Positions 229 through 3,460 of a DNA stretch of 38,510 nucleotides are shown in pieces (the first letter of the stretch is position 1; each line of letters starts with the position of its first letter). The translations under genes were made by a program, and so were the position numbers. This DNA is from Candidatus Onthousia faecigallinarum. Lineage in GTDB: Bacteria; Bacillota_I; Bacilli_A; RF39; UBA660. The DNA is taken from assembly GCA_018716225.1 (NCBI GenBank), contig DVKE01000039.1, forward strand, positions 1 through 38,510, read 5' to 3'. Below the pieces are notes generated by a model. That model did not search any database and was not told the DNA's origin. It saw only the letters and a program-made list of their open reading frames with translations.

Positions 229-1512
229 TTATCTACATATATCAAAGTCGCCTGATTTATCATAATCAGAAACATCTTTTACTCTTTCCTTGTAATAATT
301 TGGTGCATTAACATAATCAAATAATTCATCTTGTTTAGTAGTACCTCGTGATATTTTAATAACATCTTCCATATCAAAATATTCATTACCATAATAATTT
401 TTTACTTCAATAGTAGTTTCATCTTTTGCATATTCATTACCGAATTGTAATATCTTTCTAAAGAACTTTTTAATTGCCTCCAATATAACATCAATATAAT
501 TTTTTAATTTGTTATTTTCGGCTGTTAAATTTTGATTCCTAGTAACAAGCGATTTCACTTCTCGTTTAAGATTACTATTTTCCTTTTCTAATGTTTGATG
601 ACTTTTAGTAAATGTATTTACTTCGTTAAATAATTGTTCTATTTTCGGTTGGAATTCCACTACCTTTTTTGTTTCTTTGATAACTTTGTTCATTGAATCA
701 AAAGTTTCTTTTTTTACTTTGACATATTCTTTATCAAAAATAGTATTTTTAGTAGTTTTCATTTTTTCATTTAAATCATTTATTGCTTTATCTAAATTTT
801 TATTAATTATTTGGGTTTTATTCTCATAATAGTGAGTCGTTTTCTTTAACTCTTTTGTTTTTAAGTGTTCTCTATTATTGCCTTTAATACCTCTTTCCAA
901 ATCAAAGCCTGCATCAACAAGTCTTTCATGATATTTATCTTGTAACTGGGATAAGTGTATTTTATCCCTAATATATTGTTTTTTAGATATTGTCCACCTT
1001 TCAGTATTAGTTCTTTTATCTAATTTTTTAACTAATGGAACTACCACACAATGAATATGGGGAGATTTCTCATCTAAGTGAATAGTTGCATGAAGTATTT
1101 GTTCCTTTGTATAACCTAAATCATTATAAACAAATTCCATACAAGTATCTGCCCATTTCATTATGTCTTCTTCACTCATATTATCAAAAAACTTTGGTGA
1201 TGCAGTAAATAATAATTCATCTGCTACACAATTTCTTGAACGATTAACCATTTGAGTATAGTTTCTTTGTCTTTCTTTTCTTTCAGTTTTCATCTTTTCA
1301 TTATGTTGTTTTTCATATTCTTTAGTCAATTCGTGAAATTTTTTAACATATTTATAATTCAATGGAACTAATTGTATATTTTTATAACTATCTTCTATTT
1401 TTATATCAGGATTAGATTTATAGGCTTTCTTTTCTCTTTGATTATGAGATCCAATTTGTGCTAAATCATTTGTAGTCATAATAGGTTCACTTCTAAATAT
1501 TGCATAATTCAT
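229..1512 (-). CDS. MobV/Pre-family relaxase (plasmid mobilization protein)
   Basis: This is a relaxase of the MobV (Pre/Mob) family, which nicks oriT of mobilizable plasmids and leads the strand into the recipient. The N-terminus reads MNYAIFR, then GSHNQREK at about 21-28; the His (H23) matches the position of the catalytic His22 of MobM from pMV158. The metal-binding three-histidine motif is intact as HLDEKSPHIH at about 145-154. The C-terminal half (about 230-350) is charged and helical, probably coiled coil, as is usual. At 427 residues it has normal length and no break. The start follows a good site (aaaggggatgtgatat-ATG). It lies downstream of the toxin-antitoxin pair on the same strand, separated by a terminator. 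No replication gene is seen, which suggests an integrated mobilizable element or a remnant. The family call is firm; whether it is active is unknown. Confidence 0.9.
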   Translation of the reverse strand: MNYAIFRSEPIMTTNDLAQIGSHNQREKKAYKSNPDIKIEDSYKNIQLVPLNYKYVKKFHELTKEYEKQHNEKMKTERKERQRNYTQMVNRSRNCVADELLFTASPKFFDNMSEEDIMKWADTCMEFVYNDLGYTKEQILHATIHLDEKSPHIHCVVVPLVKKLDKRTNTERWTISKKQYIRDKIHLSQLQDKYHERLVDAGFDLERGIKGNNREHLKTKELKKTTHYYENKTQIINKNLDKAINDLNEKMKTTKNTIFDKEYVKVKKETFDSMNKVIKETKKVVEFQPKIEQLFNEVNTFTKSHQTLEKENSNLKREVKSLVTRNQNLTAENNKLKNYIDVILEAIKKFFRKILQFGNEYAKDETTIEVKNYYGNEYFDMEDVIKISRGTTKQDELFDYVNAPNYYKERVKDVSDYDKSGDFDICR

Positions 1513-1541
1513 ATATCACATCCCCTTTCATTTTTGCATAA

Positions 1542-1569
1542 CAAAAAAGATACCATATATATAGGTACC
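1542..1569 (-). terminator. Rho-independent terminator after the toxin gene
   Basis: On the minus strand GGTACC and GGTATC pair (one G-U) around an AT-rich loop and are followed by six T. It sits just after the toxin stop codon and before the relaxase start, so relaxase transcription probably needs readthrough or its own promoter. Confidence 0.6.
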
Positions 1570-1578
1570 TTATAATGT

Positions 1579-2013
1579 TTAAATATCGCTATTTAACAAT
1601 ATTATTTCTTCTTTAGTCATGAAAACTTTTTTATCATCATCTATCCATTCGTTTTTTTTATAATTATCATATCTATCTAAGACTTTTTTTAACTTTATCT
1701 CACTCAATTTTTCGGTTTGTCTTCTTTTTCTTACAAGTTCTGGAAATAATTCTAATTGGATAATATTGTCAATTTGTACAAAACTATCTTTATCGATTAC
1801 TGTCTCTGGCGGATTGTCCTTTTTTATAGTAACATTACCTTTTAAAAGTGTTTTCCACTTTTTTTCTTCTGTTATTGAATCTATGTGTGCAATTTCTAAT
1901 ATATTCTTTTCTTTATCGACATTAACAACTAGCACAGGATGTGCTTGATTTGCTACTACTCCACTATTATTAAATCTTATTTTTAGGGATAATACCTGTC
2001 CTATTTCAATCAT
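1579..2013 (-). CDS. PemK/MazF-like toxin paired with a Panacea antitoxin
   Basis: The 144-residue protein opens with MIEIGQVLSLKI and has a HPVLVVNVD segment at about 25-33, as in the N-terminal beta-barrel of PemK/MazF-type endoribonucleases, where a similar 'RPVLVI' strand is found. The middle is beta-rich; the last 50 residues are charged and helical, and this tail is not typical of MazF (usually about 110-120 residues). The gene starts inside the end of the upstream DUF4065 gene (ATGATTGA overlap, 8 nt), so the two are translationally coupled, which is typical of toxin-antitoxin pairs. The pairing gives more support than the sequence: Panacea antitoxins are known to pair with many unrelated toxins. 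The MazF-like assignment is by motif only and could be wrong; another small effector is possible. Confidence 0.6.
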   Translation of the reverse strand: MIEIGQVLSLKIRFNNSGVVANQAHPVLVVNVDKEKNILEIAHIDSITEEKKWKTLLKGNVTIKKDNPPETVIDKDSFVQIDNIIQLELFPELVRKRRQTEKLSEIKLKKVLDRYDNYKKNEWIDDDKKVFMTKEEIILLNSDI

Positions 2014-2494
2014 TAAGCATCTCTATAAAATCTGCACACATAAGTTTATAATTTTCTTTTTGACTATCAACATCTATCAATTGATCCTGTTTTTTATAAT
2101 AATTATGTTTCTTTAACCATTCTTCATCTTGGTGGGATATATTAATAAGTTCTTCTAATGGAGCATACTTCAAAATACTAAACATTTTTTTAATATATTC
2201 TTTAATAGAAGAATCATTAATATTATATGTCTTTTTATTACTAACAAGGTATCTATAATTGCTCATAACAGAATCTACAATAACACCATTATCATATGCA
2301 TACATGTCATCATTAAATAGTTTTTTATCCGTCATAGCAAAATAAACCATTTGCATTATATGAAGATACTTATTTAGTCTTACATTACCCTCGTAACAAT
2401 CTCTACCATTTAATTTTATTAATTTATTAATAAAAATCTCATTATTTTCATCTAAAGACAAAACATATTTAGCAATATTTTCTGCATTTTCCAT
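2006..2494 (-). CDS. Panacea/DUF4065 (SocA/GepA-like) antitoxin
   Basis: The 162-residue protein matches the DUF4065 (Panacea, also SocA/GepA-like) domain: an N-terminal 'IAKYVLSL' helix, a 'LNKYLHIMQMVYFAM' helix with the usual 'L.KLLYF' position, a 'YAYDNGVIVDSV' segment at about 66-77 (family 'a...GPV...vy') and a helical C-terminus. Proteins of this domain act as antitoxins (PanA) for varied toxins or as proteolytic adaptors. It is the first gene of a two-gene operon. The start is set by an excellent site (taggaggtggaaag-ATG) and a TTGACA-17-TAAAAT promoter with a palindrome inside it, so it may repress its own promoter. The family call is good; the antitoxin role is inferred from the overlapping downstream gene. 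Confidence 0.75.
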   Translation of the reverse strand: MENAENIAKYVLSLDENNEIFINKLIKLNGRDCYEGNVRLNKYLHIMQMVYFAMTDKKLFNDDMYAYDNGVIVDSVMSNYRYLVSNKKTYNINDSSIKEYIKKMFSILKYAPLEELINISHQDEEWLKKHNYYKKQDQLIDVDSQKENYKLMCADFIEMLND

Positions 2495-2558: not shown

Positions 2559-2587
2559 TATTTTATACATTTTATTTTAAAATGTCA
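2559..2587 (-). promoter_or_regulatory. Promoter of the toxin-antitoxin operon
   Basis: On the minus strand TTGACA (2587-2582) is followed after 17 bases by TAAAAT (2564-2559), about 65 bases before the PanA start. It is a near-consensus sigma-A promoter. Confidence 0.65.
2566..2584. promoter_or_regulatory. Palindrome in the toxin-antitoxin promoter (candidate operator)
   Basis: ACATTTTA-TTT-TAAAATGT is a perfect 8-bp inverted repeat with a 3-base centre. It covers the spacer and part of the -35 box, the expected place for autorepression by the antitoxin or the complex. The palindrome is seen; its function is inferred. Confidence 0.5.
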
Positions 2588-2664
2588 ATAAAAAAGATAT
2601 TTTTTTACAAAGTACTTAAATTCTGTATTACTTGCATTTATAGTCATTCTTTTATTTTTTGGAT

Positions 2665-2724
2665 TTATCCTACTGCTCCGTGACCGGCATCTACAACAAC
2701 CCCTGTAATCGCACGTTCATTCAT
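2665..2724 (-). pseudogene. Remnant of an N-acetylmuramoyl-L-alanine amidase (Amidase_3)
   Basis: A 19-codon frame reads MNERAITGVVVDAGHGAVG and then stops. 'VVVDAGHG' is the hallmark start of the Amidase_3 catalytic domain (family 'VVIDAGHGG'), including the first zinc histidine. It keeps an AGGTGAG ribosome binding site with good spacing (gaggtgagttt-ATG). The rest of the domain (170 residues or more) is missing, and no continuation is seen in the downstream frames. It looks like a deletion scar; a deliberately short peptide is much less likely. Confidence 0.6.
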
Positions 2725-2779
2725 AAACTCACCTCTACCTTAAAATATGTAAAGATAGGCTTTTTTGCTACTATTAAAA

Positions 2780-3460
2780 TCATTTATTAGGAGTAAAAGT
2801 TAATACATTACCAAATATTTCTAATTTACTAGAATCTCTATTATAAATAAGTGCTCCATCATCAAAAATAGCATAAACGTTTTTATTTTTATTGTTAGCA
2901 ACTTCTTGTAATTTTGCTAAATATCTCTTATTGTTTATTGAATGAACATCCATATAAAAAGGATCATCTAACACTCCAAACCCATCATAAAATGCAAAAT
3001 ACTTATAATAATTATTTTTAGCAGTAATAAAATATCTTTTTAATTGTAACTCACTTCCAGCACTCTCACCAATAATTATTCCTTTAAAATATTTAATATA
3101 ATATATTAATTCCGTATCATGCAAAACTTTTTTAAAAAACATTTCAGGATTTCCACCTGGCAAAAGTAAAATATCACTATTTTGAATAATTTCAATAAGA
3201 TCATTTCTAGTATCTTTATAAGGGTTACATACTCTAATATTTTCTTTACGAATACCTAATTTTTTTAATTCAGTATAGTATTTATTATATCTTCTACCAT
3301 CTATCGGAAAATACTCTTTCTCAAATTCTTCACTTGTTATTTCTTTAGGAAAAGCCCATGGAAAAATTGCTACTTTATAATCAGACTTAACAAACTCTTT
3401 TAATCGCTCTACTACAAAATCCATACCAAATTCAATTTTACTAAATAACACACTATACAT
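2780..3460 (-). CDS. Type 1 glutamine amidotransferase-like / peptidase E (S51) family protein
   Basis: The 226-residue protein has the S51 peptidase E fold signature. A 'DILLLPGGNPEMFF' strand-turn at about 96-109 matches the family 'GGN' motif. The nucleophile elbow GESAG has Ser133, and DVH has His173 as probable catalytic histidine. Members cleave Asp-X dipeptides or act as stress-related amidotransferase-like hydrolases; the substrate here is unknown. Length is normal (about 210-230). The start follows a gagatggtgat site. The first codons (ATGTATAGTGTGTTAT) also match an oriT core (separate entry). It sits at the edge of the mobile-like segment and may be cargo. Confidence 0.75.
   Translation of the reverse strand: MYSVLFSKIEFGMDFVVERLKEFVKSDYKVAIFPWAFPKEITSEEFEKEYFPIDGRRYNKYYTELKKLGIRKENIRVCNPYKDTRNDLIEIIQNSDILLLPGGNPEMFFKKVLHDTELIYYIKYFKGIIIGESAGSELQLKRYFITAKNNYYKYFAFYDGFGVLDDPFYMDVHSINNKRYLAKLQEVANNKNKNVYAIFDDGALIYNRDSSKLEIFGNVLTFTPNK
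3445..3458 (-). other. Candidate oriT nick-site core (pMV158/MobV type)
   Basis: The minus strand reads GTATAGTGTGTTAT. As I remember it, the pMV158 oriT core recognised by MobM is AGTATAGTGTG/TTATACTTTA, so 14 bases agree and the orientation relative to the relaxase gene is the same. The outer arms of the palindrome are not conserved here (TTTAG instead of ACTTTA), and the site overlaps the start of the S51-like gene, so chance remains possible. Confidence 0.35.

Follow-up and report, generated by a model that had tools for sequence, protein, structure and literature searches.

Does a pair of overlapping minus-strand genes in Candidatus Onthousia faecigallinarum encode a toxin–antitoxin operon and, if so, is its toxin of a new kind? 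The window, by which we mean the whole 38,510-nucleotide stretch of DNA that was analysed, is part of a 1.15-Mb draft genome, and the closest named relatives at the locus are uncultured gut Bacilli. Both open reading frames are present, as are the 8-base overlap of a Panacea gene with a small downstream gene and the HPVLVV motif of the latter (residues 25–30) that had been described in the original prediction. The Panacea gene (panA) precedes the small gene (panT) in the direction of transcription, so that the antitoxin comes first. The preferred reading, with a probability of about 0.82, is that the pair is a PanAT-type toxin–antitoxin operon, in which PanA would restrain a MazF-fold, RNA-cutting PanT. 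The features of the locus are as follows.

2006–2494, minus strand: panA, Panacea (SocA/DUF4065) antitoxin, 162 residues (open reading frame, PF13274, phrog_1281, AlphaFold2 model).
1579–2013, minus strand: panT, candidate toxin with a MazF/PemK fold, 144 residues (AlphaFold2 model, Foldseek, PemK profile, alignment, phrog_13386).
2006–2013, minus strand: overlap of the panA stop and the panT start, ATGATTGA, 8 bases long here and in all close relatives (sequence).
1579–1650, minus strand: C-terminal extension of PanT, about residues 122–144, with the pattern V.MTKEEI..LN (AlphaFold2 model and alignment of 35 members).
2560–2588, minus strand: candidate operon promoter, TTGACA-17-TAAAAT, upstream of panA (consensus scan, 11/12 match).
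1541–1570, minus strand: hairpin with a T run behind it, candidate terminator of the operon (RNA fold −10.3 kcal/mol, z −2.4).

A single promoter had been proposed for both genes. The near-consensus match ahead of panA makes a promoter at 2588–2560 that serves both genes plausible, but promoter-like sites in the scan as a whole were no commoner than in shuffled sequences. The terminator scan did not list the hairpin, whose loop of 9 exceeds the length that the scan allows. With a promoter-like match before panA and a hairpin and T run after panT, the pair looks, as far as its sequence can tell, like its own transcription unit, ending ahead of the next gene. That gene, directly downstream and near the contig end, encodes a MobV-family relaxase (229–1512, minus strand; NF041497 above cut-off) and suggests a mobilisable element or a remnant of one. 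Just upstream of the candidate promoter lies the 5′ fragment of an amidase-like gene (2665–2735, minus strand; MNERAITGVVVDAGHGAVG and then a stop), and a Peptidase S51-like gene is found at 2780–3460 on the same strand (PF03575, 4.2e-7). A short amidase reading frame is also found near PanAT in locus L042; by motif, an amidase neighbour occurs at just one locus besides the fragment in the window.

The adjacency of the MobV gene could be taken to mean that panA and panT overlap merely as chance neighbours beside a mobilisation gene. This explanation is refuted by the conservation of the pair, which is kept in dozens of genomes with differing neighbours, and MobV, which adjoins the pair only in the window, was rejected as a part of the system. 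An order-wide search with the toxin as query gave a match in 28 of 385 genomes, and every intact toxin has a Panacea gene directly upstream (20+ genomes). When 84,980 GTDB species genomes were scanned with the toxin alone, 51 contigs were recovered and PanA was directly upstream in all 51. The hosts are Bacilli, Lachnospiraceae and Oscillospiraceae (both Clostridia), Anaerovibrio and Treponema. Among the 48 distinct pairs recovered, 47 overlap by 1, 4, 8 or 11 bases and one has a 51-base gap, all within the 100-nt spacing of a PanAT locus. The neighbouring genes vary from locus to locus; therefore, the pair travels as a unit. It is also found on phage contigs, adjoining terminase genes in one (L202, 3342–4339) and integrase and repressor-like genes in another (L205, 358–1283), with a third copy in L206 (3371–4429). 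The window PanA and PanT, used singly as queries against plasmid and phage records, gave no match, and viral scans with mixed alignments did not find the pair; the phage copies were found with single family members as queries.

The two proteins also share their history. Pairwise distances among PanA and among PanT sequences correlate with r = 0.95, where shuffles reach at most 0.21, and with 0.91 inside a single clade, no shuffle in either case exceeding 0.33; the main clades are common to the two trees. At the sequence level this correlation shows co-inheritance rather than contact, because shared descent alone can yield it.

The upstream gene had been assigned to DUF4065 (Panacea), and the family as a whole upholds this: all 23 aligned PanA members match Pfam SocA_Panacea (PF13274; best 1.3e-14), the window copy alone being below the 25.7-bit cut-off (20 bits, E 0.0013). 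Window PanA also matches phrog_1281 (1e-12). Its AlphaFold2 model has a pLDDT of 92, and a fold search with this model did not find a solved relative. Residues 69–72 of the window protein read NGVI, where other Panacea proteins have NGPV. Across the PanA clades, the motif occurs as GPV/GPI, GAV, GVV and GMV, with GVI in the window, the glycine always being retained. These variants track the partner clade, such that GPV/GPI is found with HPM/HPL toxins, GAV mostly with HPY, GVV/GVI with HPI/HPV, and GMV with RLM.

The partner had been proposed to be MazF/PemK-like, and the fold match, family profiles, gene-order conservation and co-variation all speak for a Panacea antitoxin paired with a toxin of such a fold. 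In Pfam, NCBIfam and PADLOC, window PanT itself did not match any relevant family. The AlphaFold model of the 144-residue protein, built from 21 homologues, has a pLDDT of 89.9. Comparison of this predicted model with solved structures by Foldseek gave S. aureus MazF (2.7e-5) and B. subtilis YdcE/EndoA (3.9e-5) as the best matches, with MazF-mt3 and Kid also among the top ones; hits 1–18 are all MazF/EndoA/Kid or chains of toxin–antitoxin complexes, with a probability of 1.00. TM-scores against MazF are moderate (0.51–0.57 by query length, rmsd about 4 Å). The next fold family behind MazF is CcdB (E 0.044), and the best viral structure matches are PemK-like proteins. At the sequence level, PF02452 (PemK_toxin) is matched by one of 21 family members (1.8e-5) and not by the window protein, and a phage-type relative of 112 residues (L059) matches phrog_1936, a “MazF-like growth inhibitor” (6.7e-7). 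An hhalign comparison of the PanT profile of all clades with a profile of same-genus PemK proteins gave an E-value of 1.2e-6 (probability 91); the His (HP) clade alone matched weakly (E 0.0013, probability 19), and the PanA control gave 0.36. The assignment of PanT to the MazF fold is good for a modelled protein, its sequence link running mainly through the outer members. Window PanT additionally matches phrog_13386 along its length (2.2e-9), as does L059 (1.7e-25).

Other candidate assignments were discarded. A match of the toxin profile to pseudomurein endoisopeptidase in a PDB sequence search (2.9e-6) came from a short repeated helix, no stretch of which passes alone, and it vanished once more sequences entered the profile. 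Pfam matches of toxin members to PF22353, DUF2004 and PMBR were short or weak.

The C-terminus of PanT had been described as a long charged tail unlike that of MazF. About 23 extra residues are indeed present, but they are predicted to be folded rather than loose and are conserved across both clades, and the preceding residues 105–121 are modelled as the usual MazF C-terminal helix. Residues 130–140 form a conserved strand and helix that are mostly confidently folded in the model. The extension, which L059 lacks, could possibly have a role in PanA binding.

The active-site positions set the main clade of PanT apart. In the alignment, H25–P26 of PanT occupies the place of R25–P26 of MazF. Histidine replaces the MazF catalytic arginine in 42 of 42 distinct main-clade members under all three alignment modes, an invariance that is unbiased because the search patterns omitted that position; the clade sizes, in turn, are biased because the GTDB search started from the His clade. 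Arginine is retained in six outer family members, which belong to sister clades, in all 17 of the PemK proteins that were aligned, and in each of the 39 PemK hits that have a residue at this position. The Arg-to-His change is a single evolutionary split rather than a set of repeated events. D45 of PanT falls at the place of MazF T48 in one alignment mode and is shifted in the other two; every main-clade member has H25, D45 and S77. For MazF itself, Arg25 has been proposed to act as the acid/base and Thr48 to stabilise the transition state; the enzyme is crippled by mutation of either residue (PMC7354611, PMC8634880). A more speculative extension of the PanAT reading is that invariant His and Asp, in place of the MazF Arg and Thr, make the main clade a nuclease with a different chemistry or substrate, the Panacea GPV motif having changed in step.

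The pair could instead be the same PanAT system with a toxin that is not an RNase, i.e. a His/Asp MazF barrel with another target, such as gyrase, the target of the structurally related CcdB, or with another enzyme activity. The uniform replacement of an arginine that the aligned PemK proteins all keep would fit such a change, as would the rank of CcdB directly after MazF. However, the MazF fold matches far better than CcdB (2.7e-5 versus 0.044), H-P lies exactly at the R-P place, the sister clades keep the arginine, and M. tuberculosis MazF4 works with a lysine at this position (PMC7354611), all of which makes a non-RNase toxin unlikely.

The pattern of selection and decay also bears on whether PanT is a toxin at all. 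Between relatives, dN/dS is about 0.05–0.20 for both genes, indicating purifying selection. A broken toxin frame beside an intact PanA was found at six loci (L058, L073, L087, L094, L102 and L107), and the reverse at none: the sole incomplete PanA (L099) ends at a contig edge. This six-event asymmetry has a two-sided probability of about 0.03 if either gene broke equally often, although some frame breaks in metagenome-assembled genomes could be assembly errors. L059 is merely a part-profile alignment and not a frame break, and one genome (G007) has kept PanA without a partner. Loss of the toxin with PanA kept is the expectation for a toxin–antitoxin pair, and the reading frames are suggestive in this respect. 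The missing catalytic arginine, together with the absence of the GPV proline from window PanA, might otherwise mean that PanT is a regulator of MazF fold without toxicity, or a toxin that has decayed and been kept for another role, PanA being only a domain relic. Purifying selection on both genes, the invariance of H25, D45 and S77, the strict pairing, and decay that strikes the toxin and not PanA all run against this idea, which we rate as even less probable than a non-RNase toxin.

For a PanAT operon with a MazF-fold toxin, the following mechanism can be envisaged by analogy with published PanA pairs. PanA, encoded first, would bind PanT directly and block it, as in a type II system; if PanA were lost or out-competed, PanT would be freed and growth would stop. 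To judge from the fold and from two tested MazF-like PanTs, freed PanT would most likely cut mRNA or other RNA and so halt translation. With an invariant His for the MazF acid/base Arg, possibly paired with Asp for Thr, PanT may differ in its chemistry or in its RNA target. The presence of the pair on phage contigs and at scattered chromosomal sites would fit a mobile addiction or phage-exclusion module, the role in defence being conjectural. The assignment offers a likely function for an unannotated protein family, phage family phrog_13386 included. The diverse natural pairs, with their matched variation, lend themselves to the question of how many toxins can be neutralised by a single antitoxin domain, and the Arg-to-His change is a natural test of the freedom of the MazF active site.

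The partner had also been suggested to be a possible new type, and this is not supported, since Panacea paired with PemK and MazF-fold toxins has already been published and tested (Kurata et al. 2022, PMC8832971) and the same genus has a standard PanA–PemK pair. In that work, the antitoxin comes first in most PanATs, and PanT Pse. mor. and PanT Bif. rum., predicted to be EndoA/PemK/MazF-like, specifically inhibit protein synthesis (PMC8832971). Compared by description only, the window pair is like these in its antitoxin-first two-gene operon, its Panacea antitoxin and its toxin with an EndoA/PemK/MazF-like prediction but no domain-database match; it differs in His for the catalytic Arg and in GVI for GPV in the window antitoxin. 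PanAT systems whose toxin has a MazF fold are therefore of a known kind. What would be new here, judged from alignments within the family and with PemK proteins, is a subfamily whose catalytic position is altered.

Window PanT resembles the MazF/PemK/Kid mRNA interferases (PF02452) in its predicted fold, N-terminal Gly, R-P/H-P position and C-terminal helix. It differs from them in lacking a Pfam match, in having H25 for R25, possibly D45 for T48, and the C-terminal extension, and in being paired with Panacea rather than MazE/PemI. The same-genus loci, in which PanA overlaps a recognised PemK by 10 bases (L121, 1004–1854; L122, 1034–1857; L128, 1429–2267), likewise have Panacea first and a MazF-family toxin, which shows how ordinary this pairing is; unlike the window toxin, theirs is recognisable as PemK, scoring about 40 bits against PF02452, and has Arg. 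The PanA–PemK genes of L122 and L128 are followed by a gene that carries a Fic-like HPF.EGN.R motif. In L023 (2974–4189), PanA is followed by a 223-residue protein with hydrophobic, membrane-like stretches, possibly a different Panacea partner. Finally, phrog_13386, a phage family to which PHROGs assigns no function, is tied here both to the MazF fold and to Panacea as its partner.
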